Below are positions 4,422 to 51,443 of a DNA stretch of 64,000 nucleotides, in pieces. This DNA is from a virus: positions 62,001 through 126,000 of the IMG/VR virus record IMGVR_UViG_3300034105_004893, one strand, 5' to 3'. A model generated the notes under the pieces. The model had not been told where the DNA came from. It ran no database searches and saw only the letters and a list, made by a program, of their open reading frames with translations. How positions within the stretch are numbered: the first letter of the stretch is position 1; every line of letters begins with the position of its first letter. Both the position numbers and the translations under genes were made by a program.

Positions 4422-5088
4422 TAGGAACTAATTCCTTATCAATTATTGGCAAGCTTGGATTTAAAATGTCTTCTTTTTTCTGAAAATTTAAATTAATTTT
4501 ATCTTGAATACTTTTAAGTTCAATTTTGATGTTAGATATCATCGATTTGATTTCTTTATATTCTTCTTTTGTTTGTGATTTTTCTATACATTGCATCAGA
4601 ACTTCATTTTTTTTGTTAATGTCTAATAACATGGCTTTAAGTTCCTCTATATTTTTTGAAAAATCTTTTATTGCATCGTTGCTTTCGATATGTTTATTTA
4701 GTGTTTTTAACTTGTTAATTTCATTTTGAATTAAAGAAAATCTTTCCAAAAAGCTTTCTTCATTATTTTTAGTTTGTATCTTATTTTCAATTATTTTATT
4801 TTTTGAAAATAAAATAAACTTCTGATTTGTGTGCAACAAACAATCTTTGTCGTTATAATCACAAACTAATTTTTTGCTATTTTCATTTAATGAATGAATA
4901 TAAATCACTGGTATTAGATTATTTAGTACTGGTACCTTTACGAGATCGGCATTTGGAAGTATTGCATCAATATAATCATGCTTTACAACATCTTTATTGA
5001 GTAAAATCTCCAAGACATAATTATCTTTGTTGATTTGTTGCGGATTCGAAAAAAGCAAAACAAAAAAAATAAAAACTACATTGTTCAT
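4408..5088 (-). CDS. Secreted coiled-coil protein
   Basis: The 226-residue product starts with a short hydrophobic segment (VVFIFFVLLFS) that looks like a signal peptide or anchor, followed by a small beta-rich domain (residues 25-95) and then a long heptad-patterned region (about 110-205) rich in Leu, Ile, Lys and Glu, predicted coiled coil. It could be a periplasm-spanning or virion component. Family unknown. Start overlaps the gene upstream by ATGA. Confidence 0.55.
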   Translation of the reverse strand: MNNVVFIFFVLLFSNPQQINKDNYVLEILLNKDVVKHDYIDAILPNADLVKVPVLNNLIPVIYIHSLNENSKKLVCDYNDKDCLLHTNQKFILFSKNKIIENKIQTKNNEESFLERFSLIQNEINKLKTLNKHIESNDAIKDFSKNIEELKAMLLDINKKNEVLMQCIEKSQTKEEYKEIKSMISNIKIELKSIQDKINLNFQKKEDILNPSLPIIDKELVPSENN

Positions 5089-5309
5089 TTTATTCCCTCA
5101 AAAAATTCTTTTTGAAATGTAAAGTCATCAGTATGCATCCAACATTTAGACTTTTCATTCCAATAAATAGGATAATATTTTGGCATAGTATCTAAAATAT
5201 CAAAAAGATTTCCAGCAGATGATGCATGCTCAATAGATCTTTGAAAAATCAAAGGATGCACTTCTGAATATCTTTTTTTTAAAGATGCGATGATTTCATC
5301 ATCAATCAT
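5085..5309 (-). CDS. Hypothetical 74-residue protein
   Basis: A short acidic-aromatic protein beginning MIDDEIIASLKKRYSEVHP. Its PIYWNEKSKCW segment resembles part of the protein encoded at 918-1310. It is coupled at both ends: start inside the end of the YeaQ-like gene, stop overlapping the next start by ATGA. No known domain. Confidence 0.45.
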   Translation of the reverse strand: MIDDEIIASLKKRYSEVHPLIFQRSIEHASSAGNLFDILDTMPKYYPIYWNEKSKCWMHTDDFTFQKEFFEGIK

Positions 5310-29409: not shown

Positions 29410-29878
29410 TTTGCTTTTTCTCATCAAGACTATCTACAACCTTTGTGGTCATTTTACATCTGTTTTTATCAGCATCTAAAAATTCGTCTAAATTTTTAAC
29501 ACTTATAAGCGACCAATGAGGATCATCCAATGGAACATATTCTTTTTTTGTGTAATAAAATGATTCCATTGTATACCTATAAACTTTATTCTCAACCTCT
29601 TCATCGGTCATACCACCAATTAAATCTTCACAAACTTCTTTACAAATTTTAATCGCATCTTGGTCTGTTGCACATCCTAACTTTCTCATAACTTGAACGG
29701 CAGCAAGTGCTTTATCTTTTTGCAAAAGATCTATAATGTTTTTTTTCATCATACCATCAATGAAATCTGCCCTTGCCATAAAACGAGCCATAATCTGACC
29801 TCGCTTTGGAGCAAATCTCCTCACATCAAAAAAATACTGCTCAAAGTTTTTTTCGTCAATAATCAATTCTTCAGACAT
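29402..29878 (-). CDS. Conserved-looking hypothetical protein downstream of dnaE
   Basis: Read from MSEELIIDEKNF (29878), which overlaps the dnaE stop as ATGTCTGA. The 158-residue protein has FFDVRRFAPKRGQIMARFMA and two helix pairs (KALAAVQVMRKLG, DAIKICKEVCEDLIGGM), then an acidic C-terminus. The coupling to the polymerase gene hints at a replication role. No known family identified. Confidence 0.5.
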   Translation of the reverse strand: MSEELIIDEKNFEQYFFDVRRFAPKRGQIMARFMARADFIDGMMKKNIIDLLQKDKALAAVQVMRKLGCATDQDAIKICKEVCEDLIGGMTDEEVENKVYRYTMESFYYTKKEYVPLDDPHWSLISVKNLDEFLDADKNRCKMTTKVVDSLDEKKQNE

Positions 29879-32612
29879 TTTTTTCCTCTTTTGCATAATT
29901 TGAAAACTGTTCTAAAATTTCTTCTTCAGATAAATATTTATCTTCTTCAACTTCAGCAGGTTTCATCAAATATACCCTATAATCAGTTTCCTTCGTTGGA
30001 AACTTATAGACCCATCTTTGATTAGGCAATTTTTTATTTTGCTCTAATGTGTATGTTGGAAACCCTTTATCTGGTGGCTGTAATCTTAATCTAACTAAGT
30101 TACCTTGTTCTAATTCTGAACCCCATCTTTTAAGATCGTCTTCCCAAATGTTTATTTTATTTTTTTCTCCCAAAGCATCTTCTACCTCCAATTGACAATA
30201 AGTTGTTCCTTTTTTACTTTTACACATTTTTTTAACAACTATTTCTACTTCAACTGGACAAATAACACCAATGTTTTCTTTGAATGCTTCGAATGTGTAA
30301 CCTTTAAAATCCTTGCTCTTTTCCAAATTATGAGTCCAAGCAAATCCATAATACTTCATTTCACAAGCTACAATGCTTTTAAGTTCCTTTTCAAAATTTG
30401 GATCAATTTCATAATCATTAGGATTAAATGCTTCGATAGTAGGTAACAATAATTTTTTAGACTCTTCAAGTCTTTCGATGCTTTTTAAATTTCTAACCCA
30501 AAGCTTTTTTAATTCCTTTAACCTATTGAACACTTTATTAGTCTTTGTGATTTTATAATATCTTGTTTTTTGAACTTCAATAAAATCTTCAGTTCCTTCA
30601 ATTGGAACATAAGTAATTTCCAATTTAGGTTCACCCTGACCCTTTTCACATTCGAATTTTCTTTCTGATTCTACCATTTCATTTACATCGTATTTTTCCC
30701 ACTCGTCACCATCAAATGGATTAGCTCCATGAAAACTATTCAACAATCTTGTCTCGTCAGGAAAAAGCTCTTTAAATTCTTCTTCGTATTGCGACATACT
30801 AACAGCGAATCTTTTCTTTTTATCTTCTATCTTTCTCGCACATTCTTTGTAGTGTTCGTAAAATTTCCACAATGTGATTGGATCAGATTCATTAAAACAC
30901 CTCAATCCAATCAAGCATTTTATAACACTAGCATCTGTGCCAAACTTAAAAAGAAAATCTCCAAATCCATTATATGGTTGACCAGAAACAATTTTTTCCG
31001 CTGGTGCTTCTCCAACACCCTTTATATTTGACAAGCCATAATAAATAACATCATCTATAAGCTCAAAATTTTTCTTAGACTTATTGATGTCAATCTTGTG
31101 CATCTCTATGTTGTGTCTTTTTGCTTCCATTTTATAGTCTTTAATCTTTTCGCTTAATGTTTCACAACTTAAAACGGCAGCATAAAACTCATGAGGATAA
31201 TGAGCCTTTAAATATAATAGACGAGAAGATACATAAGTGTATGCTACGGAATGACTTAGGTTGAATCCGTATTCTGCGAATGATTTTATCTGATCGAATA
31301 AATTGATTGCTTCTTCTTCAGATATGTTAAGATTTTTTTGACCTTTCTCTATGAACATAATTTCATATTTTTTAAAAGCCTCCGCTTTCTTTTTTGAAAT
31401 AGCCTTTCTAACAATTTCACAATCTCTGAATGGTATTTCTCCAACAACATTCAAAATTTTCATAATTTGCTCTTGGAAAACCATAACTCCATAAGTTTTT
31501 CCAAGAATAGGTTCAACAAGAGGATGCAAACTATATTCTTCGTTGCCCTTCTTCCTCTCAATATATCTTTCGTGCATTTTCATGTTCAAAGGGCCAGGCC
31601 TATAAAGAGCAGTGTATGCAACCAAATCCTCAAATGAATCAACCCCACCAGACCTAACTAATTTTCTAATGCCTTCCGAATCAAATTGAAAAATACATTT
31701 TAAATCGCCTTCATTTGCCATCTCTAGAGCTTTAGAATCATTACGCCATTTGATGATATCTGTCCAATCAGATTGGTTTGGCATGGCACAAATACTATCA
31801 ATTGACTTTCTTCTTTTTACCAATTCACAACATTTACTGATTTGCATCAAATTAGAAATTACAAGTAAATCAAACTTAACCAATCCTACTGGTTGTAAAT
31901 CTTGACCATTAAGACCTTCAACCCATGCAGATGCTTGTGGATTGTCTTTTCTCTTAACCAATGGAACAAGATCGTGTAGTGGAATAGAACTTATAATCAA
32001 ACCACCAGCATGTTGGCCCATACCTCTATTTCTATTTATAAGTCTTTTGGCTGCGTTTGATACATCTGGATACTTTTCACAATACTCTTTCAATTTTGGA
32101 TATTGTGATAGTGCCACATCCCAAGTCAATGGTTTTCCCTCATCATCTTTTGCTTCAAGCTCTTTTGTAAGTTCAAGTATTTCTCCTCTTGCCTCTCCAT
32201 GGACTCTAGCCATATCAATCAAAGCACTCTTCATGCCAAATGTTGTGTAATTGCCAATATTGCAAACATATTCTTCGCCAAATGTTTCAGAAGCCCACTT
32301 GTTTTTCAAATAATCTCTAACTTCAGAAAGATAATCGACATCAATATCTGGCATATCTCCTTGAACAAACTTAGGATCTTTATTGATATCAAAATCATCA
32401 ACTATGCCCAAAATGTATGGAACTAAGATATTATTTTCATTCTTGGGGAATTTTTTCTTTTCTTTAAATAAATTCAAAAAATATTCTGACTTTCCTTGAA
32501 TGTCAATTTCTTTAATTTCCCACTCAAGTCTTTTTTTATGCTTTTCACATAATTGTCTTCTTTTAAAGATGTGCCATAAAAGCTGTTCGATTTTTTGAAC
32601 TGTCGTTAACAT
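29871..32612 (-). CDS. dnaE: DNA polymerase III alpha subunit, C-terminal part of a split DnaE
   Basis: A 913-residue polypeptide that begins where bacterial DnaE palm begins. After a novel 85-residue N-terminal region, the catalytic strand MPDIDVDY (87-94) supplies D89 and D91, equivalent to E. coli D401 and D403; VKFDLL (245-250) supplies the third Asp (D248). Further on are the fingers (YRPGPLNMKMHERYIERKKG), FNLSHSVAYTYVSS, the helix-hairpin-helix (SNIKGVGEAPAEKIVSG) and an OB fold near 770-880. The PHP domain and the start of the palm are missing and lie in the gene at 41923-43285, upstream in transcription. The two chains must associate to form an enzyme. Confidence 0.9.
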   Translation of the reverse strand: MLTTVQKIEQLLWHIFKRRQLCEKHKKRLEWEIKEIDIQGKSEYFLNLFKEKKKFPKNENNILVPYILGIVDDFDINKDPKFVQGDMPDIDVDYLSEVRDYLKNKWASETFGEEYVCNIGNYTTFGMKSALIDMARVHGEARGEILELTKELEAKDDEGKPLTWDVALSQYPKLKEYCEKYPDVSNAAKRLINRNRGMGQHAGGLIISSIPLHDLVPLVKRKDNPQASAWVEGLNGQDLQPVGLVKFDLLVISNLMQISKCCELVKRRKSIDSICAMPNQSDWTDIIKWRNDSKALEMANEGDLKCIFQFDSEGIRKLVRSGGVDSFEDLVAYTALYRPGPLNMKMHERYIERKKGNEEYSLHPLVEPILGKTYGVMVFQEQIMKILNVVGEIPFRDCEIVRKAISKKKAEAFKKYEIMFIEKGQKNLNISEEEAINLFDQIKSFAEYGFNLSHSVAYTYVSSRLLYLKAHYPHEFYAAVLSCETLSEKIKDYKMEAKRHNIEMHKIDINKSKKNFELIDDVIYYGLSNIKGVGEAPAEKIVSGQPYNGFGDFLFKFGTDASVIKCLIGLRCFNESDPITLWKFYEHYKECARKIEDKKKRFAVSMSQYEEEFKELFPDETRLLNSFHGANPFDGDEWEKYDVNEMVESERKFECEKGQGEPKLEITYVPIEGTEDFIEVQKTRYYKITKTNKVFNRLKELKKLWVRNLKSIERLEESKKLLLPTIEAFNPNDYEIDPNFEKELKSIVACEMKYYGFAWTHNLEKSKDFKGYTFEAFKENIGVICPVEVEIVVKKMCKSKKGTTYCQLEVEDALGEKNKINIWEDDLKRWGSELEQGNLVRLRLQPPDKGFPTYTLEQNKKLPNQRWVYKFPTKETDYRVYLMKPAEVEEDKYLSEEEILEQFSNYAKEEKNV

Positions 32613-35495: not shown

Positions 35496-36754
35496 AACAG
35501 TTCGTCCAGAAGTGGAAAAACTTCACCGATTCCTCCACGCAAATTCCCTACGAATACAAGCCAATATGCAAAGATTTACTTTTGCACGATGAAGAAATCG
35601 TTGTCGAAACAATAGACATACTGAAAAGAAACATATCATCTTGGGCAGAAAAAAATTCCGAAGCTTACGCAAACAAAAAAGACCTTACTTTTTTAGGTAA
35701 AAATGATCTCACAGACAAAGACAAGTGGTATGTAAAATCCTTAGAAAATGAATCCATGCCAATGAAAAGTAGCGGAAGCACCACTGGTGAGGGATTCGAA
35801 TACTTGCGATGGGAACCTTTCCTTTATTTCATCGAAGGAGAAAACCACTATGATCTGATTCTGGATGAATATGAAATACCACAGAATCCAGACATCATGT
35901 ACTTCTTTAATTCTTCGTTCGGAAGTGGCTCAAGACACATAAACAATACATCGAAAAGCAAAAACTTTATGGAACATCACGGAACAAAAAGAACCGCAAT
36001 GGTTCATTATGCAAACACGAAACTACAAAAAGAAAAAGAAGAAGTGTTTCGGAAATACCTATTCAGATATTTAAATTTAAAAAAAATGGATGTAATTTTT
36101 GCCCCAGGCCCACAAATAAAAAAAATATGCTCTTATATAAAAAAGGAAAACTATAAAGGTAAACTGTGCAACTTGTTGAGCAATAGCAATGAAAAAATTC
36201 TGGATGAAGATGCTAAATTCCTTCTCGAAAAAAATTATGTGTCACATATATGCGACCACATGAGGTGTTGGGATGGAGGAGCTTCCTTCTTCACATGTAG
36301 AGATAAGAACTATCACTTAATGGATAACCTTTCTTGGTGTGTCGAAAATGAGGAAAGGCTCATATCAACCGATTACTTCTCCTTGGCTTGTCCTTTTGTC
36401 AAATTCTGGAATGGCGACAGGTGCAAGATAGGCGATAAATATCAGAGATGTTCGTGCGGAAGGTTGTACAGAGATTTTAAATTCTTGGAGAATCGACCAT
36501 TTGCCATAAAAGGGCATTCGATCAACGAGTACAAAAAGAAGCTCACGGAAACTGGTCTTACAGAGATAAAACAAGTGAATTGCGGAATCGACTTCATAGA
36601 AATCGTGTCGAACAAAGAAATAGATCCTATCAAAAAAAATGAAGTTGCCGAAATATTTAAGTCTCACAAATTGAAATTCAAAGTTGTTCCAGACCAATTG
36701 GCATCGCAAAAAATTCATAACAGAACTCCATCTGAAAAGGTGGAAACAAAATGA
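35474..36754 (+). CDS. Adenylate-forming ligase-like protein (PaaK/CapK type)
   Basis: A 426-residue protein with the nucleotide-binding loop SSGSTTGE (99-106), matching the S-S-G-(S/T)-T-G of acyl-adenylate enzymes, and the CSCGR motif (about 328-332) typical of the PaaK/CapK group, followed by a C-terminal domain ending SEKV-x-x-K. Family knowledge: such enzymes activate a carboxylate with ATP and pass it to CoA, an amine or a sugar. It overlaps the cysteine-repeat gene by ATGA. Its G+C is visibly higher than its surroundings, pointing to a separate origin. Confidence 0.6.
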   Translation: MRNTQEIKQFVQKWKNFTDSSTQIPYEYKPICKDLLLHDEEIVVETIDILKRNISSWAEKNSEAYANKKDLTFLGKNDLTDKDKWYVKSLENESMPMKSSGSTTGEGFEYLRWEPFLYFIEGENHYDLILDEYEIPQNPDIMYFFNSSFGSGSRHINNTSKSKNFMEHHGTKRTAMVHYANTKLQKEKEEVFRKYLFRYLNLKKMDVIFAPGPQIKKICSYIKKENYKGKLCNLLSNSNEKILDEDAKFLLEKNYVSHICDHMRCWDGGASFFTCRDKNYHLMDNLSWCVENEERLISTDYFSLACPFVKFWNGDRCKIGDKYQRCSCGRLYRDFKFLENRPFAIKGHSINEYKKKLTETGLTEIKQVNCGIDFIEIVSNKEIDPIKKNEVAEIFKSHKLKFKVVPDQLASQKIHNRTPSEKVETK

Positions 36755-39700
36755 TAGATCCAAAACTGGTGAAAAAATGGGATATAGTTTTCGCTCTACA
36801 AGAAAAGGGATGTGGGTATTTCGCAACATATGAAGCAGTAGTCATTGTGCCACGACCTTGTACCGGAGGGTCAAGTGCTTATTGGACTCTTGCTTCTCCT
36901 TGCCCAGATGGTTGCACATCTTCTCCTCCTCCTCAATTGCCAACAAATCCTCCATGCGATCCTAATTACCCTGACAATGGAACGGAAAATGACATAATCG
37001 GGTGCTGCGAAGGTATAGTTTCAGTCGAATGCTCCGGCACTTGCTGTAAATGCGGTGGTGTAGAGTGTTTGACAACGGAGACATGCTGTGACGATGTTTG
37101 TGTGAACTTACAAACAGATCGTGACCACTGTAATTCTTGTACCACCCCTTGCAATCCAGATCAAGACTGCTGTGATGGCGAATGCAAAAACATATACGAA
37201 GACAGCAATAATTGTAATGGTTGCGGAAATGTTTGCCCTGAAGCTACACCAACTTGCTGCAATGGTGATTGCTGCACGACAGCGAATTGTTGTTTCGTTG
37301 ATGACATCCTTACTTGTATTGATGTAACAAACAATCATGATCATTGCGGAAGATGCGACAATCCTTGTGCAGCCGAAGAAACATGCTGTTCTGGTGAATG
37401 CGTCAACACACAGACAGATAATGAGCATTGCGGATCATGTCCGAATGCTTGTCCTGTCGCATTCACATGCTGTTCTGGTGTATGCAAAGAATTATTTGGG
37501 GATGATCGTTTAAATTGTGGCGATTGTGGCAAAACTTGCGTTGTAGGAGAAATATGCAAAAACGGTGTTTGCAAAGACGCTTGTGCTGCGAACGACTGCG
37601 AGTTTACTTGGGTTGATCCTCCGGGTTGTTGTAGCCGTTATGTCTGTTCGACTGAAAATGAGTATGCGTTTTCTTCTTCATACACTTCAATTACAGATTG
37701 CTCTGTCGATAGCCCTCCAAATATACCTTGCGATGGAAGCCCAGAATCTACAGGTTATTTTTACCTTACATGGAGTCCAGAGCCGTGTTGTACTGGATCT
37801 TGTCAATCTTTTTGTCTAGAACCAACTTGCACTTGGTCAGGTCCAGAAAACTCTACTTGTGGAGAGGGTTGTGCTTGCCAATCATTTGAAGGTCAACCTT
37901 GTGCATGTGGAACACTCAGAGACGATCCATGTATAAGAACAGTAGTACCTCCCGGACAATGGAATGCAACTGCGACATGTCCACAAGGATGCAACTGCCC
38001 CGGGAACGCCCCAATACAAAATGGAACAAATGGTCAAGTAGTCAGTTACGAATGCGTCAATTGCCTTGCTCCATGTGAAGCAGGAGAAAAATGCTGTTTC
38101 GGCACATGTAAAAACATACTGACAGATCCTCTTAATTGCGGAGATTGTGGAAACAATTGTGGCGATCAGATTTTGGGAAACAAATGCTGTAATGGGAAAT
38201 GCGTAAACATACTTACAGGGGATTTAAACTGCGGAGATTGCACAACTGTATGTCCATTTCCAGAAGTATGCTGCAATGGCGTATGCAAAAATCGTAACAC
38301 TGACAATTACAACTGCGGATCTTGCGGTTACGAGTGCCAGACTGGAATTGGGGAAACCTGCTGCAATGGGATTTGCGTAAACGAAAATACCGACAGAAAC
38401 AACTGTGGCTCCTGCGGATTTACATGTCCCAACGCAGATCAGTGCATTGATGGAAACTGCGTTCCATGCGTTCCTCCATGTCTAGAAGCTGGTACGGCTT
38501 GCTGCAACAATCAGTGCATCGACATATTGTCTGACGAGAGCAACTGCGGTGGTTGCAATATACCTTGTGCTGGCAAGTGCTGCGGTGGCATTTGCGTATT
38601 AGATTTGAACACCATGTTTAACTGTGGTGATTGCGGAATAGAGTGTCCGCAATTGATCAACCAAATCAATCTGTGGCAGTGCTGTAACGGTCAATGCAAG
38701 AACCTAAAAACTGATCCAGAAAACTGCGGATTTTGCGGAAATGTATGTCAAGAACCTCCGGGTGACACATTTACAGTTCCAAAATGTTTCTTGGGAAACT
38801 GTGCGGAACCAGAATGCGATTGTCAAGGATATGAAGCTGGAATGCCACCACAACCTGGGCCAGACGATGTGGCTTTCGTGGCTTCATGCGTTGGAAACAC
38901 GGTAAGTTGTGATGGATCTTGTTATTTCAATGCTGTAGGCGGAGGATGGGTTCTGTATGAAGAGCCGGGCGGAACTGGATTTTCTGGTACCTGCGGAAAA
39001 GAACCAGATTACACATATTGCGTTGATGACAAATATGCATGTGTGGATGACAAATATGTTTGTGTCGGAGATATATATTATTGTGTAAAAAACATAGAAG
39101 GACAAGATATGCCAACTTATTGTATACCTGCTGCATCGTTTAACGCTGAAACACAAGCACTAATCGGATCTTACATCGGAGCAGAAAACTGTGCCGCTGG
39201 TTGTAGCGGTGATGGAAGCGAGTGCGATCCTGCTTGTGGCAATGGATTAACCTGTTGTGATACACAATGCGTAGACACGCAAACTGACAGTGCCAATTGC
39301 GGTGGTTGTGGTGGCGGTCCTTGTGCTGCTGGCGAGGCTTGCAAAGATGGAGTTTGCACAGGATGTACGCCTCCATGTGCCGATGGTGAATCGTGCTGCG
39401 AAGGTGGAACGACATGCTGCGAAACTTGCTGTGCTGACGCATGTTGTCCAACTGGTCAATCATGTGTTGATGGAGTGTGTGCCACATGCGAACCACCTTG
39501 TACTGCTGGACAAACCTGCTGTGGAGGATCATGTTGTGATGCTGGAATAATATGCTGTGACCAAACATGTTGTGCTGAAGGTGAGTTCTGCGAAAACGGA
39601 AGTTGTGCAACATGCAACCCAGTGTGCTATCCAGACGAGACATGCTGCGATGCAACATGCGTTAGGTGGCAATGTGGAGAATGCCCAAATGCATGTGCTT

Positions 39701-41115
39701 CTGCTGAAATAGTTTGTTGCGGTTTGCCGGGTCAAGAAGTATGTTGTCCTGAAGGTCAAACTTGTGTTGAGAATGCGTGTTACGGATGTACACCTCCTTG
39801 TTCCGAAAGTCAGGATTGTTGCGATGAGGTATGCACAGAAGTTGGAACAGACACAAATTGTTCGGGTTGTGGTGACGCTTGTGGAGAAGGAACAAAATGC
39901 TGCGATAAAGTGTGTACTGCTACTGGAACTGACACAAACTGTTCGGATTGTGGCGATGCTTGTGCCGAAGGTCAGAGTTGTTGTGATGATGTATGCACAG
40001 AAATTGGAACCGACACAAATTGTTCGGGTTGTGGTGATGCTTGCACAGACGGAAAATGTTGTGAGGGAGTGTGCAAAGAAACACAAACCGACAATGAAAA
40101 TTGTGGCGATTGCGAAAATGTATGTAATACAGCAGAAGGTGAAAAATGTGTTGCTGGAGTATGTGTTACTTGTGATCCACCTTGTACTGGACTTGATGTA
40201 TGTTGTGATTTAACATGCTGCAAAGTTTGTTGCGGTCCAGAAGGTAGTAAGACATGCTGTGCTGAAGGAAAAATCTGTTTAAATGGTCAGTGTAGCGGTT
40301 GTGAACCAGAATGTACAGAACCTGGACAAACTTGTTGCACCAATCCTAATCAGCCTAATCCTACAGAGGAGGAACCAAGTCCACCAATAGGACAATGTTG
40401 CCCTGCTGGAGTTCTTTGTTGTGCTGGTGGATGCTGCCCTAATGAAAATTTTTACTGTTGTGATAACAAAGTATGTTGCTTCAATGATCGTGCTTGTTGC
40501 AATGGAGTTTGCTGTGCTGAAGGTAAATTCTGCAATAATGGCGTGTGTGCTGATTGTAATCCAACATGCTACTCTGATGAAAAATGTTGTCCTGGAACTA
40601 CTGGTAGCGGGGAATGTATTAGGTGGCAATGTGGCGATTGCCCAAATGCATGTACACGATTCCAAACATGCACCAATAATGTTTGTTGCGATGCAGTAAC
40701 GGAGGGTCCACTATCAGGGCAAACTGGTGTAGGTTGCGGAACTGTTTGTTGCGACCCCGGTATCACATGTTGCCGAGACATTTGTTGTTTAGACCCTGAC
40801 GAAGAATGTTGCGATGGCTTTTGCGTAAATACCAATTCTATCGACAATAATAATTGCGGAGGTTGTGGCCAGCCATGTGTCGCTCCAGCAACTTGTTGTA
40901 ATGGTTCGTGTAGAACAGTTTTTGCAGACACTTCTAGTTGCGGAAGTTGCGGGAATACATGTTCACTTGGAATGCTTTGCTGCCCTGATAACGGTGGCTG
41001 CGTTTACCCATCGTATTTAAATTGTGGTAGTTGCGGAAATGAATGTGAAGTAGGACAATCATGTTGCCCAGATGAACAAGGCGGTCACACATGCTTGGCT
41101 CAAGGTTCATGTTAA
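36751..41115 (+). CDS. Giant cysteine-rich repeat protein (Stig1-like repeats)
   Basis: A 1454-residue protein in which nearly one residue in six is Cys. From about residue 90 to the end it is built from repeats of 35-50 residues of the form CC-x-G-x-C-x-N-x-x-T-D-x-x-N-C-G-x-C-G-x-x-C, as in Stig1-type domains known from plants and from secreted or surface proteins of myxobacteria and planctomycetes. Two blocks near residues 345-420 and 690-820 break the pattern. No signal peptide or membrane segment is present, so disulfides would have to form after release, or the cysteines bind metal. A fibre-like virion decoration is plausible. Codon use is more G+C-rich than the surrounding genes. Confidence 0.7.
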   Translation: MIDPKLVKKWDIVFALQEKGCGYFATYEAVVIVPRPCTGGSSAYWTLASPCPDGCTSSPPPQLPTNPPCDPNYPDNGTENDIIGCCEGIVSVECSGTCCKCGGVECLTTETCCDDVCVNLQTDRDHCNSCTTPCNPDQDCCDGECKNIYEDSNNCNGCGNVCPEATPTCCNGDCCTTANCCFVDDILTCIDVTNNHDHCGRCDNPCAAEETCCSGECVNTQTDNEHCGSCPNACPVAFTCCSGVCKELFGDDRLNCGDCGKTCVVGEICKNGVCKDACAANDCEFTWVDPPGCCSRYVCSTENEYAFSSSYTSITDCSVDSPPNIPCDGSPESTGYFYLTWSPEPCCTGSCQSFCLEPTCTWSGPENSTCGEGCACQSFEGQPCACGTLRDDPCIRTVVPPGQWNATATCPQGCNCPGNAPIQNGTNGQVVSYECVNCLAPCEAGEKCCFGTCKNILTDPLNCGDCGNNCGDQILGNKCCNGKCVNILTGDLNCGDCTTVCPFPEVCCNGVCKNRNTDNYNCGSCGYECQTGIGETCCNGICVNENTDRNNCGSCGFTCPNADQCIDGNCVPCVPPCLEAGTACCNNQCIDILSDESNCGGCNIPCAGKCCGGICVLDLNTMFNCGDCGIECPQLINQINLWQCCNGQCKNLKTDPENCGFCGNVCQEPPGDTFTVPKCFLGNCAEPECDCQGYEAGMPPQPGPDDVAFVASCVGNTVSCDGSCYFNAVGGGWVLYEEPGGTGFSGTCGKEPDYTYCVDDKYACVDDKYVCVGDIYYCVKNIEGQDMPTYCIPAASFNAETQALIGSYIGAENCAAGCSGDGSECDPACGNGLTCCDTQCVDTQTDSANCGGCGGGPCAAGEACKDGVCTGCTPPCADGESCCEGGTTCCETCCADACCPTGQSCVDGVCATCEPPCTAGQTCCGGSCCDAGIICCDQTCCAEGEFCENGSCATCNPVCYPDETCCDATCVRWQCGECPNACASAEIVCCGLPGQEVCCPEGQTCVENACYGCTPPCSESQDCCDEVCTEVGTDTNCSGCGDACGEGTKCCDKVCTATGTDTNCSDCGDACAEGQSCCDDVCTEIGTDTNCSGCGDACTDGKCCEGVCKETQTDNENCGDCENVCNTAEGEKCVAGVCVTCDPPCTGLDVCCDLTCCKVCCGPEGSKTCCAEGKICLNGQCSGCEPECTEPGQTCCTNPNQPNPTEEEPSPPIGQCCPAGVLCCAGGCCPNENFYCCDNKVCCFNDRACCNGVCCAEGKFCNNGVCADCNPTCYSDEKCCPGTTGSGECIRWQCGDCPNACTRFQTCTNNVCCDAVTEGPLSGQTGVGCGTVCCDPGITCCRDICCLDPDEECCDGFCVNTNSIDNNNCGGCGQPCVAPATCCNGSCRTVFADTSSCGSCGNTCSLGMLCCPDNGGCVYPSYLNCGSCGNECEVGQSCCPDEQGGHTCLAQGSC

Positions 41116-41922: not shown

Positions 41923-43285
41923 TTATAAATCAAAACAAATAGATCTACCGCCTCTAGCCTCAGACATGAATCGACTAAACAAAAGACCTTCAAATACTGG
42001 ATCAACATCAGTAATTCCAAGACAATAGCAAATCAAAGAACCACAAGCACTTCCCCTGCCTGGCCCCACAGCTTGAGTTCCATCACCACCTATATTCTCT
42101 TTGCACCACTTTCTTGCCTCATCAGTCATCATTTTTTGAATAAGAAAATATGTACTAAATCCTTTTCGAGTAATAAGACTTAATTCTTCAATTATTCTGT
42201 CTTTATATTCTTTGGTCTTAGGCAAGTTTCTCTGCTTGAATCCTTGTATGACTAAATCTTTAAGCTTTTCGTCACAATCAGGCAAAATTGGTAATTTTAA
42301 ACTTCTATCAAGTTCAACTCCTTTTGCCATTCTGCAAATCTCTACTGTATTCTTTTTAGCTTCACAAAAAATTTCATATGGAATAACATCACTATAATCT
42401 TTAGCCCATTTTTCGTTAAGTTCTTCCTCTGACTTCATCCATAAGTTGGCATCTTGCAATTCAAAAAAGTCTTTCATGGCATCTTCTTTCATTGCCTTTT
42501 GAATTTCTTGAATTGTTCTATTTGTCTGTACCATTAACATAAGTCTTTGAAAGTGACTATCTTCCTTTCGACAATAATGACAATCATTTGTAAGAATTAT
42601 TTTTAATTTATACTTTTCATAAGCCTTGATGATAAATGCATCATAAGGCTTTTGTTTGACAAAATCTAAAAGCATAATTTCAAGAAAATAATTATCTCTA
42701 CCAAACATCTCAATGTATCTTTCAATCATTTGAAATGCAGCTTCTTCACCACCAGAATCAAATGCTCTACCAACTTCGCTGTTATAGCAACAACTAGTAA
42801 AAAACAAACCTTCTTTATGTTTCTCAAGTTGTTCGTAATTTACTCTTGGCTTTCTATAAAATCCTTTTGTCCATCCCCAAGATGTAAGTCTTACTAGGTT
42901 TTTATAACCTATTTCACTATGTGCAATCGCAAGAAGATGTGGACTAGCTCTCAATTCCTTTAATTCTATTTCGTTTAAGTTTTTAGAGAAATTTTGCATG
43001 TCTTGCAAAGAATCACTTGATGGCTGTAACCTATTAACATATAGTTCTGCTGCGAATATAGGAGAAAGTTTGTTTTTACCAAACTTATCACAAATTTTCT
43101 CACAAGCTTTTATTTGTCTTGGAACAGCACCCAACATGCCATGATCACTAATAGTTAAAAAGTTTTGATTGATTTGGGTAGCTCTGAGTGAATATTCCTC
43201 ACAAGTACCAAACCCATCTAAAACAGAAAAATCGGAATAACTAATGAAGGTGGAGATGTTCGAAACCGACAATCTCCACCTTCAT
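41923..43285 (-). CDS. dnaE: DNA polymerase III alpha subunit, N-terminal part (PHP domain), frame-broken at its start
   Basis: The frame open to 41923 covers the PHP domain (TISDHGMLGAVPRQIKACE) and the first palm segment (AVGPGRGSACGSLICYCLGITDVDP), ending RFMSEARGGRSICFDL just before the catalytic PDxDxD, which lies in the separate gene at 29871-32612. The true start, ATG at 43285 five bases after AAGGAG, reads MKVEIVGFEHLHLH and then TAG. Removing seven bases (43237-43243) would restore HLHLHSDFSVLDG, the canonical PHP metal motif. The open frame as it stands begins only at a TTG (43272), which replaces the metal ligands by STFIS. Either the gene is broken, an error exists, or the ribosome bypasses the gap. 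Confidence 0.8.
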
Positions 43286-44014: not shown

Positions 44015-47000
44015 TTACCTTTTTGCTCGTATTCTTACATTTAAAGGATCATTGTCAAAACACTCAAAAACGATTTCGCTCCCATCATGACCTTTGGTCG
44101 ATAGAAACACATCGTTTTGCCAAATAAACCTTAAAGAACAAAGAACATCACGAACATAAGGCTCGTATAGTGTTCTTCCCTCATAATTATGCTCCAACAT
44201 AAGATAACCTTTGCCACGATAATTTGGCTCAGTCAATCTAATATCTGGCAATCCACCATTAACATGCCTTGCCATAAGGAGTTTTTTTATTTTTTTATAT
44301 TCATGACTTTCCAAGATTGTATCACCACTTGGATATTTTTTATATTCAAAATATTCTTGCTCTCTGCAAAAATCTTCAGTAAAAAATTCATGTATCAAAG
44401 TTAGATCATCGTAATACTTTCTAACTTCAAATATTTTTTCTTTTCCTAATTTTGCATTTGTATCCCAATTTTCTTTTTTGGTTGAATTTGTGCAATCATC
44501 CCATTCAGTTCCAAATTGGCCTTTATCCCATCTTTTTCTTATGTCCGAAAGAAGATTATAGCCTAGCTTATATGGATTAGTGCTATATTTTCCTCCAAGA
44601 ACACCCATCTTATGTGCAGCATATTCTATGATTCCATCATCATGTGTTTTCTGGCCCAATGAAACATAACCCTGTTCTGCCATAATGACATGGTCGGTCA
44701 TACTATTATGATTCATAAATCCACAAGCCGAATATCGATGACTTGTTTCTACTGTAATGTCATACACTGTATCTTTTCCAATTTTTTCGATAGAAATAAT
44801 TTCATCTTCAAGTTTTTGATCAATAAACCATTTATGATTGTCAATATACTTCTTTAACTTTTGCTGTTTTCTAGATAATCCAAAACCTATTTGCTCATAA
44901 TACTTTACCGCTTCCTGTCCGGTTATGCGTACATGCCAACAAGAATCTTTTTGTTTGCGTCTTGTTGATAATATGCAAAAATTCAACAAAACATTTTGTA
45001 TTTGTCTGGAAAGAACTTCGCTTGCGGTGGAAAGAATAACACCAGCATCCCCCGCATAACCATCACAATCAAAATACGATCTTACAAAAGAAGCGATAAC
45101 ACTCTTGGGCGATTTAAGAATAATTTCTGGTATTTGCTTAATCCTAGCACAGACTCCAGTTTTCATTCCCAAATAAACAAGTAGTTCTTCAAGTTCTTTT
45201 GAAGTTACAGAAATTCTATATCGACCATTTTTAGATGTGTCATCCCAACGAGATTTACAATCTATATTAAATAATTTCTTTGTAAGACGAATATAATTAT
45301 CAGCTTGATCTTTATCTCCAGTTGTTAAGCCAAGAGTTCTCTTGCTTTTAGATATATGACCATCTCCAATCATATATCCAACAAATGAAGCAAATTCTTC
45401 ATCCATAGAAAAAGGTAAAGATATACATTTTCTTTTATTTCTCATGCATGTCATAGACTGATCATCATATTGCTTGAGCAATTTGTCTAAATTGTCATTT
45501 TTTTCTTCACCTTTATAATGATATTTTCTATAAACGACTTGAGACATAGTCGCTGATGCTTTTTTACAGATTTGCTTCAATTCTATCCTTTTATTGGGCA
45601 ATTTATAATCGATTTTTTGATATTTTTTCGTCCAAATATTTGAAAACGATATTTTAACTTTTTCTCCTACATTCATTTTATCAAGACGAACCCAATCATT
45701 ATCACCCATAACTCTATGATTATTTGAACCCTCAAAAACATATCCTCTTCTAGTTTCAATCCTATAAACATCACGATTTTCAAAAGTGAACCAATTTGTC
45801 ACATTTCTAGATTTTTCACCATCATAAACCATAACAGGCAACTTTTTATCAACAATTTCACCTAATGTCAAAATGCCCATATTTGTAGATACAAGAGAAT
45901 CTCTTCGTCCGCAAGCCCACCCCTCGTTTAATACCTTGGTTTGTCTCTGTGGGAAAAAATAAATTGATTCCTCATAGATCATAGACATAATATCTTGCTG
46001 CCATGGCTTCAATGGAGCATTATCACGCAAGAATCCAAAAACATCTTTAACTGGTTCAATAAAAAATCCAAGCTCTTCTGCCAAATCTTTATCTTTAACC
46101 TTTTCGTTTTCTTTATCTTTAAAATCTTTGGTGTTGATATAAGAATCCATATAAAGTCTATCATTGCCAACTTTTAGTCGCCTTGGAAAACGATAATTTT
46201 TTTTATCAATAATGTTTTTATCTTTAATTACTTTTTGATGCCAAGCTGATGCACCATCAATTAAATTGTCGATGCGAAGCAAATAATCAAGAAATTCAGT
46301 AACCTTTTCTTTACCCCATCTAGCCATATATTTTCTTATACGACTCGCATGATTCGCCATGTTATTCAACATATTTGTGTCAGTGGCAGAAAAATGAATA
46401 TTATTTTTAAAGAAATCATTATGACCAGTAGCGTGAGCGATAACTGTCAAATGATCCAATAGAGTATTGCTATCTAAGCAATAGATGTAGCAAGGTGATG
46501 TATTATGGGTAATCAATCCATATGCAATAAAATCATGAGAATCATGATCCAATGCAATATCAACAGTTTCGATCTCATCTCCATCAACAACATGCTCAAC
46601 AACAAATAAAGGATTTGAAATAATATCTTTAATTTCATTTGGAACACTTAATCCTTGATTTTCTGCTCTTTGTACAAATGAAGAAAAAGAATTAATCCCA
46701 ACTTTTTGTTTCTCGAACATTTTAATTGAATAACCAAGACTATGGTTGTTATATGTTGTGATTCCTACACTTTTTGCCCACATAATCAATTGTCGTTGAA
46801 TGTAAGGCAACTCCATTCCAGAACTACGACAAAATTTTCTATCAAGTAATTTTTTAAGTAATTCTTGCTTATAGTTAAGCACAAAACCTATTCTATTGTA
46901 AAATTTATTTTCAGCCCAAATTCCCTTAATTTTAACAACATTAATATATTTTTGATCACCTTTTTTACCCTTGCCATTTTTCAATGTTTTTAAATTAGAA

Positions 47001-48124
47001 AGAATTCCCATTTCCGAAAGCATAATCTGAACATCATCTGCCAATTTCTTATTATAACAACTAAAACCAACATGGTCAGCTACATAGCCATCAGTATCGA
47101 ACAAACCACGAATAAAAGCACATCTATAGGCAGGAGGAGACTTCCAAATAATATCTGGAATTATTTTTTCCTTAAATGTTTTACCTTTCTTTAAACCAAT
47201 CGAATTAACAAAATCAACTGCGTTTTTTGAGCATAATGTTACATTGAAACAATTTGGTTTTTCGTAAATCTCTGCAACAACTCCAAATACCTTTTTAAAT
47301 AAATCTACAACATGTTCTGCATATGTCCTGTGTTTTTTACCAACAGCAACGGTTAACATATTTTCAGCAGACTTTACTCCTATCGACCCATCTCCAACCA
47401 AAATTCCAAGAAGTTCCGCCAATTCTATCGTAATATGATTCGGTGGATAAATTTCTTTAATACAATGCCTAATGTTGGGCCTTGTTGATTCAAAAACTTG
47501 TTCGGATGACCAATCAATTCTTGGTGCATCCCAATTACTTTCATATGAATCAGTTCCTACAAAAATATCACCAGATACAACATCCGATGCTTTTTTCCAG
47601 ATTAAACCATTATTAGAAAGAACACGCCATTTGTGATTTGGCGTACATACTAATGTTTGGCCATCTTTCAAACAAATTTTCTTAGTTTTAGAAGCGTTTT
47701 GTCTCTTTGTCGCAACAACATTCCTAGTTTCATTACCAACAATAACTTGATCGCCTACCTTCACATCTCCAGCTATAATTGTACCACGCTTAGTCAAAAC
47801 TGGAGCATTAAGTTCACAGCAATTGATTACCATTTCATATATCTTATGCATTTGATTTTCATATCCACGCTGCAATTCTTCATATTGCATGCCAAACGAC
47901 CAATGTGGATATCGTACTGGAAAACCACCATAAGCTGCTACTTCAGAGATTTCATCGTAGGTAAGAAGTTGCACTACAGTTGGATAAAAGTCTAAACCCC
48001 AATCTCTACAAACATTCAAAATTATTTGAGCATGTTCTTTTAATTGTTTTGGAAGTTGAACACCAGGAATAGTGTTATCGCCAATAAGAAGAGAAGAGCC
48101 ATGCATAAACTTGTTAGAAGACAT
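44015..48124 (-). CDS. spoVR: SpoVR-family protein interrupted by two inteins
   Basis: The 1369-residue translation is three SpoVR pieces around two inteins. Extein 1 (1-101) ends YEMVIN; extein 2 (542-737) begins TSPCY, restoring the VIN-x-x-PCY motif, and contains HATGHNDFFKNN; it ends NEGWA; extein 3 (1141-1369) begins SMTDHVIMAEQG. Joined, they give 526 residues, close to E. coli YcgB (510). Family knowledge: SpoVR/YcgB acts with the kinase PrkA/YeaG and YeaH in sporulation, stationary-phase and stress responses; its biochemical activity is uncertain. It overlaps yeaH by 11 bases. Confidence 0.9.
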   Translation of the reverse strand: MSSNKFMHGSSLLIGDNTIPGVQLPKQLKEHAQIILNVCRDWGLDFYPTVVQLLTYDEISEVAAYGGFPVRYPHWSFGMQYEELQRGYENQMHKIYEMVINCCELNAPVLTKRGTIIAGDVKVGDQVIVGNETRNVVATKRQNASKTKKICLKDGQTLVCTPNHKWRVLSNNGLIWKKASDVVSGDIFVGTDSYESNWDAPRIDWSSEQVFESTRPNIRHCIKEIYPPNHITIELAELLGILVGDGSIGVKSAENMLTVAVGKKHRTYAEHVVDLFKKVFGVVAEIYEKPNCFNVTLCSKNAVDFVNSIGLKKGKTFKEKIIPDIIWKSPPAYRCAFIRGLFDTDGYVADHVGFSCYNKKLADDVQIMLSEMGILSNLKTLKNGKGKKGDQKYINVVKIKGIWAENKFYNRIGFVLNYKQELLKKLLDRKFCRSSGMELPYIQRQLIMWAKSVGITTYNNHSLGYSIKMFEKQKVGINSFSSFVQRAENQGLSVPNEIKDIISNPLFVVEHVVDGDEIETVDIALDHDSHDFIAYGLITHNTSPCYIYCLDSNTLLDHLTVIAHATGHNDFFKNNIHFSATDTNMLNNMANHASRIRKYMARWGKEKVTEFLDYLLRIDNLIDGASAWHQKVIKDKNIIDKKNYRFPRRLKVGNDRLYMDSYINTKDFKDKENEKVKDKDLAEELGFFIEPVKDVFGFLRDNAPLKPWQQDIMSMIYEESIYFFPQRQTKVLNEGWACGRRDSLVSTNMGILTLGEIVDKKLPVMVYDGEKSRNVTNWFTFENRDVYRIETRRGYVFEGSNNHRVMGDNDWVRLDKMNVGEKVKISFSNIWTKKYQKIDYKLPNKRIELKQICKKASATMSQVVYRKYHYKGEEKNDNLDKLLKQYDDQSMTCMRNKRKCISLPFSMDEEFASFVGYMIGDGHISKSKRTLGLTTGDKDQADNYIRLTKKLFNIDCKSRWDDTSKNGRYRISVTSKELEELLVYLGMKTGVCARIKQIPEIILKSPKSVIASFVRSYFDCDGYAGDAGVILSTASEVLSRQIQNVLLNFCILSTRRKQKDSCWHVRITGQEAVKYYEQIGFGLSRKQQKLKKYIDNHKWFIDQKLEDEIISIEKIGKDTVYDITVETSHRYSACGFMNHNSMTDHVIMAEQGYVSLGQKTHDDGIIEYAAHKMGVLGGKYSTNPYKLGYNLLSDIRKRWDKGQFGTEWDDCTNSTKKENWDTNAKLGKEKIFEVRKYYDDLTLIHEFFTEDFCREQEYFEYKKYPSGDTILESHEYKKIKKLLMARHVNGGLPDIRLTEPNYRGKGYLMLEHNYEGRTLYEPYVRDVLCSLRFIWQNDVFLSTKGHDGSEIVFECFDNDPLNVRIRAKR
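44705..45913 (-). mobile_element. Intein 2 in SpoVR, with LAGLIDADG endonuclease
   Basis: Residues 738-1140 (403 residues). It starts Cys738 in CGRRDSLVSTNMG (block A), has block B SNNH (800-803), LAGLIDADG motifs VGYMIGDG (915-922) and FVRSYFDCDG (1013-1022), and ends GFMNHN with Ser1141 as +1. The insertion point follows the highly conserved NEGWA motif. It has about the same layout as intein 1 but little sequence identity, so the two were probably acquired independently. Confidence 0.92.
46502..47821 (-). mobile_element. Intein 1 in SpoVR, with LAGLIDADG endonuclease
   Basis: Residues 102-541 (440 residues). It starts Cys102 in CCELNAPVL (block A), has the block B T-x-x-H at 161-164 (TPNH), LAGLIDADG motifs LLGILVGDG (238-246) and FIRGLFDTDG (337-346), and ends GLITHN with Thr542 as +1 residue. 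All residues for self-splicing (Cys1, His-Asn end, Thr+1) are present. The site lies in the conserved VIN-x-x-PCY segment. Confidence 0.92.
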
Positions 48125-49334
48125 TATCGGACTCCGTATTCAATTTAGCTTTTGATTTATCTGAACCCATTAATTTTTGAATAGCTTCTAATATTTGTTG
48201 ATTTCTTTTTTCTTCTGTTAAAACAGCACCACCTTCTGCATTTATTTCAGTGGTCTTAATATTTTCTCTATTAAGATCTCCCTTTTCCAAAGCTTGATCA
48301 ACTACATTTTTTATTGAGTTTGCGTAATTCCAAGGAAGTATTTGTGTTATTCCAACAAGATTTACGATTCTTTCTCCAAATGATTCTTTTAATGTGTTTA
48401 TAAAAACTTGATTATCTTCTTCCCAATTGTCGCCATCGGTAAAATAAAATACATATATATTCCATTTTTCTGGGGGATATCGATTTTCAAATTGCTTAGA
48501 AATGAATTTCAAAGCAGAGCTACAAGTAGTGCCACCGCCAAATCTATAATTATAAAATTTTTCTTCATCTACTTCCATAGCAGAAGAATCATGCCAAACA
48601 AAAAGTCTATCTACTCTTTTGTAAAATCTTCTAATCCAAACATCAATCCACCAAGCCATATCAGAAACTATTTCGCACTTTTGCTGATCCATACTTCCAG
48701 ATCCATCTCTAGCATATATGATCAAAGCATTACTTGAAGGAACTTTAATTTCCTTGTATTGCCTATATCTTTTATCTCTTTTTATTGGCTTGATTGCCTT
48801 AATTGGATCTTTGCATCCTGGTACTATTTCCAAATCATTTATAGTTCCATCTGCTGCTTGTCTTTTTAGAGCTTCTAAAAATGTTCTTCTGTTATGCCTT
48901 AGTGATTCTGGGCCTACTAAAGATATGTTGTTATATTTTATTTTTACTTCATCAAATGTGTCGCTTACTTTTGGCTTTAGATTTGGAAGTTCTAATTCTC
49001 CCTGCATGAATTTTAAAACTTCTTCAAGGTCAAGACTTATGGTAATTCCTTCACTTTCATCTTGACCAGCACCATTGCCATTACCCTTGCCCTTTTTGCC
49101 CTTGTCGATCACATCGCCATCTTTGCCTTTTCCTCTTCCTGTTCCATTTCCATTATCGCCATAAAGGATTTGCGGAATATCGATTTTTGGAATGGATATC
49201 GATATTTTACCACGCTTACCTCTAGACTTAACAATTTGGCCACTTTTGATAAATTTCTTTAGAGCTTTGCGTAGCTTGCCAGAAACAACATCAATAAAAT
49301 CTTTGTGGTCTTCTTCAATTCTTCTAGGACACAT
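48114..49334 (-). CDS. yeaH: YeaH/YhbH-family VWA protein (DUF444)
   Basis: A 406-residue protein (E. coli YeaH is 427). It has the DUF444 N-terminus with a glycine/lysine-rich linker (GNGTGRGKGKDGDVIDKGKK), the KRDKRYRQYKEIKVPSSNAL block and a VWA-type domain with MIDAS D-x-S-x-S in ARDGSGSMDQQK, then FGGGTTCSSAL and YFTDGDNWEED. In bacteria it is encoded next to the PrkA kinase and probably interacts with it. Order and overlaps here match the bacterial operon. Confidence 0.9.
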   Translation of the reverse strand: MCPRRIEEDHKDFIDVVSGKLRKALKKFIKSGQIVKSRGKRGKISISIPKIDIPQILYGDNGNGTGRGKGKDGDVIDKGKKGKGNGNGAGQDESEGITISLDLEEVLKFMQGELELPNLKPKVSDTFDEVKIKYNNISLVGPESLRHNRRTFLEALKRQAADGTINDLEIVPGCKDPIKAIKPIKRDKRYRQYKEIKVPSSNALIIYARDGSGSMDQQKCEIVSDMAWWIDVWIRRFYKRVDRLFVWHDSSAMEVDEEKFYNYRFGGGTTCSSALKFISKQFENRYPPEKWNIYVFYFTDGDNWEEDNQVFINTLKESFGERIVNLVGITQILPWNYANSIKNVVDQALEKGDLNRENIKTTEINAEGGAVLTEEKRNQQILEAIQKLMGSDKSKAKLNTESDNVF

Positions 49335-49370: not shown

Positions 49371-51443
49371 TTATTCTTCTGCCAAATCGCCTCTAGCAAA
49401 TATGCTTCCTACAAAATCAAGAACATCTGTTGCCGATCTTTCATTGTACCCGTATTGTTTTATCAAACGAGTCTTTATTGCATCGATCTTTTCTTGTATA
49501 TCTTTATCAACTACTGTGGCACCAGAAACATTTAAAGCAGAAAGCTTAATAGTGTCTTTAACATCTTCAAACAATTTAGCTTCCAATGCTTTTTTCAATT
49601 TAGAATTAGAATCCCATCGGAATGTCTTATGCTTAATTGCAAGATCTCCAATGAATGCAGCGATTTGTCTTCGGAAATCATCAGCACCTTGCTCTGGGAT
49701 ATCTATTTTCGATTCAACAGCCCTCATAAGCCTTTCGTCTGGCTTTCTATCTTGTCCAGTAATTGGATCTTTGATTTTAGACTTATTGATATAGGCCATG
49801 ATATTATCGATATAGTTGGTGCATAAACGAATTACTGCATCTTCATCGCCAACCAAGGCCTTTTGAACTTCTGCCTTCAAAATTTCAGTCAATTTCTTCA
49901 CCACCAAATCAACACAAGTAATATATCGACCAACATCATCTTTATTATTTAGCAAAGAACTACCTTCTAGGCCATCTCTTAGTTCATTCAAAACCATGAA
50001 CATATTTACATAATCATGATTGTTCGCAAGGCAATTGGAAAGTTTGTCTTGAATATATCGAACAGAAACACCTCTAGTCATGCCTTCGTCTGGATATCTG
50101 TCTTTTAGCTCTTTGACCTGTTCGTCTGTCCAACCTGGTAAGAGCTTACCATCATACAATTCTGCTTTTTCAACCAAAGATATCTTTCCATCTTTGTCGT
50201 CATTTAGTCTTGTCAAAATTGCCCATAATGCAGCAACTTCCAAGGTATGTGGAGCAATATGTTGCTTTACTTTTGTTGGCCCATAATCTTTTTCTAGAAT
50301 CTTTAGCTCTTCTTCCCAACGCAAAGTATAAGGAACATCAATCTTTACAGTTCTATCTCTAAGTGCTTCCATATATTGATTGCTTCTAAGTTTTTCATAT
50401 TCTGGATTATTGGTGTGTGTAAATATAGCCTCATCGATACCAACTTGACTAAATTTCTTTGGCTTGATACTTTGTTCTTGTGATGCTCCTAAGAGATCGT
50501 ACAAGAATGCTTGATCTAGCTTCAAAGCCTCTATAAATTCAATCATTCCCCGATTTCCCACACAAAATTCCCCGTCAAAATTAAAAGCTCTAGGATCAGA
50601 ATCGGCACCGAATGTTCCAATTCTGCCAAAGTTTATATCGCCAGTAAGTTCAGTACTATCTTGATTTTTTTCGTCTTTAGGTTGAAATGTTGCAATACCA
50701 CAACGATCAGACTCACTAAATGTCTTACGAATAACACGGATATGTTTTTCAAGAATCTTTTCCAAATCACCATCATATTTTTTCAACAATGCATTCATGA
50801 AAAATCTACATCTTGGATCTAGTTCTCCTTCGCATCGCAATTCATAAATTTCAGATCTTTCACTTTCTGGAACTGATTCTAACAAAGCACGATTAATTTC
50901 TTCCATGATTGGCTTTCGCACTTCTGGTGGCAGTAGCTTTAATGGCTGCTCATGCATTGGGCATTCATCTTCATCTTTTAAGTAAATCCCATCGACACCT
51001 GTTGGAAGATTAATCCATTTAAAACTATACCAAGCTCCAGCATCGGTGGTGGAATAACGCTCCATTTCTCTTTTGAACAATCTGCAAAGAGTTGATTTTG
51101 AGCTTCCTACAGGACCATGAAGAAGCAAAATTCGTTTTTCTGTTCCGAAATGACCAGCAGCACCCTTGATGAATTTAACAAGAGAATCTTTAGTTGGTGT
51201 CAAGCCAATAATGGGATATTCTGGGTTGTCGAAAAAATTATAATGTTTATATGTTTTGCGATATTCTTCTACTGGGTAGAATCCTTTTTCTATCACCATA
51301 TCAAAAATAATTTGCCAAGAATTCCTAAGTAACTTTGGATTGGTGTAACACAAATCTACATATTCAGAAAACGACATTTCGTTATTGAGAATTTTAAATT
51401 TACTTTGATCAAATTTACCTATAAACTTATTTAAAGCGTTCAT
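49371..51443 (-). CDS. prkA: PrkA/YeaG-type AAA+ serine kinase
   Basis: The 690-residue protein matches PrkA over its length (E. coli YeaG 644). N-terminal AAA+ domain: Walker A GPVGSSKS (110-117), PMHEQPLKLLP and the arginine-rich sensor region; FGADSDPRAFNFDGEFCVGNRG (family-specific segment), and GIDEAIFTHTNNPEYEKLR; a C-terminal kinase-like helical domain with YIQDKLSNCLA. Family knowledge: a stress-activated serine kinase (or protease) linked to sporulation and nitrogen/stationary responses. First gene of the three-gene cassette. Confidence 0.92.
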   Translation of the reverse strand: MNALNKFIGKFDQSKFKILNNEMSFSEYVDLCYTNPKLLRNSWQIIFDMVIEKGFYPVEEYRKTYKHYNFFDNPEYPIIGLTPTKDSLVKFIKGAAGHFGTEKRILLLHGPVGSSKSTLCRLFKREMERYSTTDAGAWYSFKWINLPTGVDGIYLKDEDECPMHEQPLKLLPPEVRKPIMEEINRALLESVPESERSEIYELRCEGELDPRCRFFMNALLKKYDGDLEKILEKHIRVIRKTFSESDRCGIATFQPKDEKNQDSTELTGDINFGRIGTFGADSDPRAFNFDGEFCVGNRGMIEFIEALKLDQAFLYDLLGASQEQSIKPKKFSQVGIDEAIFTHTNNPEYEKLRSNQYMEALRDRTVKIDVPYTLRWEEELKILEKDYGPTKVKQHIAPHTLEVAALWAILTRLNDDKDGKISLVEKAELYDGKLLPGWTDEQVKELKDRYPDEGMTRGVSVRYIQDKLSNCLANNHDYVNMFMVLNELRDGLEGSSLLNNKDDVGRYITCVDLVVKKLTEILKAEVQKALVGDEDAVIRLCTNYIDNIMAYINKSKIKDPITGQDRKPDERLMRAVESKIDIPEQGADDFRRQIAAFIGDLAIKHKTFRWDSNSKLKKALEAKLFEDVKDTIKLSALNVSGATVVDKDIQEKIDAIKTRLIKQYGYNERSATDVLDFVGSIFARGDLAEE

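Follow-up and report, generated by a model that had tools for sequence, protein, structure and literature searches.

The viral DNA analysed here, a window of 64,000 nucleotides (positions 62,001 to 126,000 of the IMG/VR record IMGVR_UViG_3300034105_004893), carries a spoVR gene that is interrupted by two inteins (Table 1). Its open reading frame (ORF) encodes 1369 amino acids, in which Pfam recognizes three SpoVR stretches separated by matches to Intein_splicing and LAGLIDADG_3, all above their cut-offs. Intein 1 (residues 102-541, 440 residues, CCELNAPVLT...ITHN/T, the slash marking the junction) is inserted at VIN/TSPCY and intein 2 (residues 738-1140, 403 residues, CGRRDSLVST...MNHN/S) at NEGWA/SMTDH. 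The block A spacing makes Cys1 of intein 1 the first of the two cysteines in VIN/CCELNAPVLT, which gives its length of 440 residues. When both inteins are removed the joined exteins come to 526 residues. The original prediction, made from the letters of the window alone, had already described two complete inteins with LAGLIDADG motifs, Cys1 and a terminal HN at these two places and a joined product of normal size; models, motifs and empty alleles agree with the former, and the 525-residue length of intein-free homologues bears out the latter.

Both inteins have the class-1 set of splicing motifs, namely Cys1, a block B histidine (in TPNH in intein 1 and SNNH in intein 2), the block F D/H (VYD/H in intein 2), the terminal HN, and a +1 residue that is threonine after intein 1 and serine after intein 2. 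Cys1 and the terminal HN are invariant in all the alleles examined, and the class-1 motifs are intact in both window inteins and in all close alleles, with the exception of intein 2 of the related allele L030, where the block F histidine is replaced by asparagine. The acidic LAGLIDADG motifs can be read as GDG and FDTDG in intein 1 and as GDG and FDCDG in intein 2, and PF14528 (cut-off 22.5) matches two stretches in each intein, with 64.1 bits for intein 1 and 67.5 bits for intein 2. PF14890 (cut-off 35.8) gives 46.8 bits with intein 2 alone and 69.1 bits with the whole 1369-residue protein, which also matches TIGR01445 (34.1, cut-off 24.5) and TIGR01443 (20.3, cut-off 15.6). The host protein itself scores 319.6 bits with the SpoVR family PF04293 (cut-off 27), and in the intein-free relative L008 this model is covered from position 5 to 404 of 407. 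The equivalog model NF008737 gives 150.6 bits for the window protein and 180.2 for L008, under its cut-off of 679; judged by these scores both are divergent SpoVRs and not of the E. coli equivalog type.

Related viral contigs supply the empty sites. Four intein-free SpoVRs of 525 residues (L005, L006, L008 and L010), 85-92% identical to that of the window, run uninterrupted across both insertion points. The search of viral contigs, with the joined exteins as query, also yielded L007, whose SpoVR is 99% identical and has intein 1 only, L009, with intein 2 only, and L012-L017, with both, so that all four states occur. Further scans found divergent alleles interrupted at the same site 1 (L030-L033, L044, L091, L107 and L113) or the same site 2 (L030, L042-L046 and L107). 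In all, about 32/5/2/5 distinct viral SpoVRs have no intein, intein 1 only, intein 2 only and both (32/7/4/6 in a mechanical tally, before copies truncated at locus ends and duplicate contigs were dropped). This comparison with the spoVR of other phages shows that the insertions are not normal SpoVR domains. An ordinary or viral-SpoVR-specific domain would fit a frame that is open throughout and insertions that are conserved in some relatives, but exact empty alleles at 85-99% identity, the matches to intein and LAGLIDADG models and the invariant Cys1 and terminal HN refute that explanation, whose probability we consider close to nil. As the window is part of a metagenome-derived virus contig, a chimeric assembly joining a SpoVR gene to unrelated inteins might also be imagined. 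This is hardly credible, as the two-intein gene recurs in independent metagenomes, identical in L012 and near-identical in L013-L017, L030, L044 and L107. In a further contig, L106 (IMGVR_UViG_3300045125_000119), the SpoVR frame lies in several pieces and holds no intein, which could indicate a pseudogene or a sequencing error.

Inteins at site 2 were also found in cellular SpoVRs, and a phage-only phenomenon was therefore rejected. A pattern combining NEGWA/Cys with intein block A was run on 84,980 genomes and gave 81 stretches; 64 of the 80 examined hold a complete site-2 intein in a SpoVR gene, with 264-409 residues and an HN end before serine or cysteine. They belong to Chloroflexota (22), Myxococcota (13), Pseudomonadota (9), Planctomycetota (7), Acidobacteriota (6), Armatimonadota (2), Nitrospirota (1), Bipolaricaulota (1), Halobacteria (2) and an unplaced bacterium (1), so the site-2 lineage takes in viruses, haloarchaea and eight or more bacterial phyla. 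The shortest (264-294 residues) have kept the splicing motifs and lost recognizable endonuclease motifs. In seven of the cellular genomes the intein-bearing gene is the sole SpoVR found. In samples of about 100 genomes, those with a SpoVR numbered 31 in Chloroflexota and 59 in Planctomycetota; site 2 was interrupted in 4 of each (one of each being the seed genome), and no interruption of site 1 was present in these same 31 and 59 genomes. The carriers include the named isolates Thermosporothrix hazakensis, Ktedonosporobacter rubrisoli, Allochromatium palmeri and Halospeciosus flavus.

The two inteins of the window are related in their endonuclease parts. Their LAGLIDADG regions are 29% identical over 259 residues (BLASTP, E=8e-21), and the idea that they are unrelated was rejected; the earlier statement that they share little sequence does not stand either. 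Their separate arrival, which had been deduced from that statement, is nevertheless supported, because they fall into two different clades of a tree of 66 rows with helicase and terminase inteins as outgroups. One clade (support 100/99) holds the site-1 inteins, and the other (99/91) holds every site-2 intein to the exclusion of the outgroups. Within the site-2 clade the viral inteins (100/100) are nested among cellular ones, adjoining copies from Planctomycetota and Chloroflexota (95/92). The site-1 lineage of intein 1 is virus-only as far as found, and intein 2 probably entered viruses of the window type from a bacterial SpoVR, a direction that we infer.

Both inteins are much more alike between viruses than the SpoVR that surrounds them, which marks them as mobile homing elements. 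When the window is compared with L013, the number of synonymous substitutions per synonymous site (dS) for the exteins is 0.38, 0.78 and 1.69, as against 0.26 for intein 1 and 0.038 for intein 2; when it is compared with L007, the exteins give 0.16, 0.20 and 0.09 and intein 1 gives 0.004. In addition, L030 and the window share 91% identity in intein 1 and just 54-71% in the SpoVR parts. These comparisons establish the transfer of inteins between diverged hosts, beside their presence/absence polymorphism. In each of the inteins the nonsynonymous counterpart (dN) is much smaller than dS, which points to purifying selection. The codon following site 2 is an AGY serine codon in all seven distinct occupied alleles of the virus clade to which the window belongs and TCN in the closest empty relatives; AGY is found in 7/7 occupied as against 19/47 empty alleles with serine (Fisher p=0.004, relatedness ignored). 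Since a switch between TCN and AGY takes two changes, the AGY codon most simply arrived with intein 2 and would be a footprint of co-conversion. Given this pattern, L007 looks like an allele that was never invaded at site 2. A sliding-identity search for co-conversion tracts gave no sharp peak at the insertion sites.

A third insertion site was found in the 316 kb record IMGVR_UViG_3300023199_000204 (L135, L276), whose SpoVR frame of 1296 residues is interrupted by two inteins, the first-mentioned site 2 being occupied and so being a new site at AAHCSAH/SDFF, directly after the HxxxH motif. No second intein at site 3 was encountered when one was searched for. Two genes upstream of this two-intein SpoVR, the PrkA of the same record has a LAGLIDADG-type intein of its own (PGDSK/CVGG...ISHN/SQSQ; L285, G218:C1:125500-130000).

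The three sites lie in highly conserved parts of SpoVR, in keeping with the established tendency of inteins to occupy conserved segments (PMC2814812). Among 10-residue stretches of the protein, sites 1, 2 and 3 are at the 97th, 93rd and 99.6th percentile of conservation, and three random sites would be as conserved with a probability of 0.00014. The earlier proposal that sites 1 and 2 occupy functionally critical, conserved segments is thus upheld. Residues H123, G126, H127, N292, E293, G294 and A296 are invariant in 54 viral SpoVRs. An AlphaFold2 model of fair quality (predicted local distance difference test score 83.9, predicted template modelling score 0.80) places site 1 in a loop flanked by strands 96-99 and 104-109, site 2 within helix 289-306 and site 3 within helix 114-133. 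The invariant H123xxxH127 and N292-E293-G294 suggest a metallopeptidase-like fold, in which H123, H127 and E293 might form a metal site; this is offered as a hypothesis and a lead only, because the model has no Foldseek match in the PDB (best E=2) and phmmer gave no sequence match there.

We consider it highly probable (about 0.93) that two independent homing inteins have invaded this viral spoVR, each at a site of its own, and that the precursor is normally spliced to SpoVR. Each intein would excise by the class-1 route, with an acyl shift at Cys1, transfer to the +1 threonine or serine and cyclisation of the terminal asparagine, and excision of both would leave the normal 526-residue SpoVR. 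With its LAGLIDADG endonuclease each would cleave the conserved site in spoVR alleles that lack it, and repair would then copy the intein in; inteins 1 and 2 may be at different stages of this spread.

Several points weigh against this reading. Intein 1 alone scores 30.4 bits with PF14890 (Intein_splicing), under the cut-off of 35.8, and we infer working splicing and DNA cutting by both inteins from their sequences. The counts of viral SpoVRs in the four states are not frequencies, as intein-baited scans favour occupied alleles, and the related sequences in them are not independent. Several backbone supports linking the viral intein 2 to particular phyla are moderate (95/92), the letter composition is uneven among the rows of the tree, and the AGY/TCN footprint is confounded by shared ancestry.

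The inteins might alternatively be retained until a signal such as redox state, metal, temperature or stage of infection triggers splicing, which would make them a switch on SpoVR, as the original prediction had suggested. Conditional splicing has been reported for other inteins, for example that of mycobacterial DnaB (PMC6195587, PMC7360933), and with both sites in highly conserved segments the unspliced precursor is probably inactive. However, one or both inteins are missing from relatives at 92-99% identity, which could not be so if the switch were needed, the inteins move between diverged hosts, and no feature specific to regulation was found, so that this suggestion is left unsupported and appears very unlikely. 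A broader proposal, that the PrkA-YeaH-SpoVR module is a preferred host of inteins across viruses, bacteria and archaea because splicing from its conserved core depends on conditions, the inteins thereby being tolerated or serving as a stress-responsive gate on SpoVR, seems improbable to us. Invasion by two independent homing inteins followed by normal splicing is the explanation that we prefer.

The spoVR gene of the window is the third gene of a PrkA-YeaH-SpoVR operon, an order that is kept in nearly all the related contigs examined. The viral label of the window is given by the IMG/VR record (165,207 bp) and by its close relatives, which are all viral contigs or the huge-phage genome LR756511. 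Terminase_6N had no match within the window fragment, and phrog_2 was dropped as a terminase marker, being uninformative as it also matches 13 of 14 control genomes. The window also encodes (36751-41115, plus strand) a cysteine-rich protein of 1454 residues with eight matches to the plant STIG1 family (Pfam PF04885), which is unusual in a virus.

Table 1. Features of the SpoVR locus in the window
Feature	Position	Strand	Evidence
SpoVR precursor, three exteins and two inteins, 1369 residues	44015..48124	-	Pfam, sequence comparison
N-extein, SpoVR residues 1-101, ends ...YEMVIN	47822..48124	-	comparison with intein-free alleles
Intein 1, 440 residues, class-1 motifs and LAGLIDADG endonuclease	46502..47821	-	PF14528, motifs, empty alleles
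Middle extein, 196 residues, TSPCY...NEGWA; contains AHATGH motif, ends within NEGWA motif	45914..46501	-	
Intein 2, 403 residues, class-1 motifs and LAGLIDADG endonuclease	44705..45913	-	PF14528, PF14890, motifs
C-extein, 229 residues, SMTDH...	44018..44704	-	
YeaH/DUF444 gene, upstream of SpoVR with 11-bp overlap, same operon	48114..49334	-	PF04285 215 bits; conserved order
PrkA serine protein kinase gene, first in PrkA-YeaH-SpoVR module	49371..51443	-	PF08298/PF06798; conserved order

Other interrupted genes were observed in the window and its relatives. DNA polymerase III alpha is encoded in the window by two genes on the minus strand (41923-43272 and 29871-32612) about 9 kb apart, with the break in the NTPase domain at model position 98/100; no halves of a split intein were seen beside this break, and by eye the first 85 residues of the C-half resemble a degenerate duplicate of the stretch with which the N-half closes. 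The same split is present in 9 of 12 related virus records, a tenth yielded the N-terminal piece alone and two more distant ones have the gene intact. In L283 (G004:C1:94500-99500) and L284 (G006:C1:50500-57500) the finger domain of the polymerase is further broken by an apparent split intein (N-part ...SPDHPVLT..., C-part ...FIANDIVVHN/CGMDKRY in L283) with an endonuclease-like ORF of about 350 residues between the halves. The L283 ORF starting at 2749 has a small polymerase intein (EYGFNK/TLTEDTIINC...GIITSN/SHAVAYTY), atypical in apparently beginning with threonine and ending in SN, not HN. A short viral protein (...RSKFxKYP/C...GN/SAYANxWAAKWYK) holds an intein of about 250 residues, apparently without LAGLIDADG motifs, in L034 (ORF 3881-5194) and L035 (ORF 3872-5176).

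Inteins, double inteins and SpoVR in phages are already known. The splicing blocks and endonuclease of the SpoVR inteins are the same as those of the class-1 LAGLIDADG inteins of archaeal V-ATPase, RIR1, RFC and Pol, and the best PDB sequence matches of both window inteins are the V-ATPase inteins 7qsu/7qss, but the host here is SpoVR, outside the replication and ATPase machinery. Among the NCBIfam matches of the window protein are intein-containing RFC, RIR1, GyrA and RtcB models, and no model of an intein-containing SpoVR. In the haloarchaeal MCM-a/MCM-d system either intein homes by itself, and homing of both together is inefficient (PMC10643990); the SpoVR gene resembles it in having two independent inteins with single-intein alleles as intermediates, and differs in host gene, in domain of life and in that its evidence is comparative only. 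Similar LAGLIDADG inteins were found by tblastn in phage helicases, polymerases and terminases (Staphylococcus phage Twillingate, Psychrobacillus phage Perkons and others), and those of them that the tree includes fall outside both SpoVR intein clades. As for SpoVR in known phages, that of the huge phage LR756511 has no intein, the matches in Thermus phages TMA and phiYS40 are uninterrupted over 82-89% of the query, and that of Ralstonia phage RsoM2USA is listed at a normal 506 residues with PrkA nearby (ORF28 and ORF30). No paper naming an intein together with SpoVR or stage V sporulation was found in the library searched; an earlier listing in InBase or in the 2016 survey of Novikova et al. 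is possible. That SpoVR is a host of inteins, at three sites and with a site-2 lineage that crosses domains, is apparently unreported in the literature searched.

Within a widespread stress module SpoVR is the component that is understood least, and it now appears as a repeated target of inteins, which occupy three sites close to its invariant HxxxH and NEGWA motifs. The conserved insertion sites point to the functional core of a protein that has no solved relative. Moreover, the site-2 lineage offers a natural system for studying how inteins pass from one domain of life to another and whether large viruses are their carriers, and the named isolates with SpoVR inteins make such questions testable.

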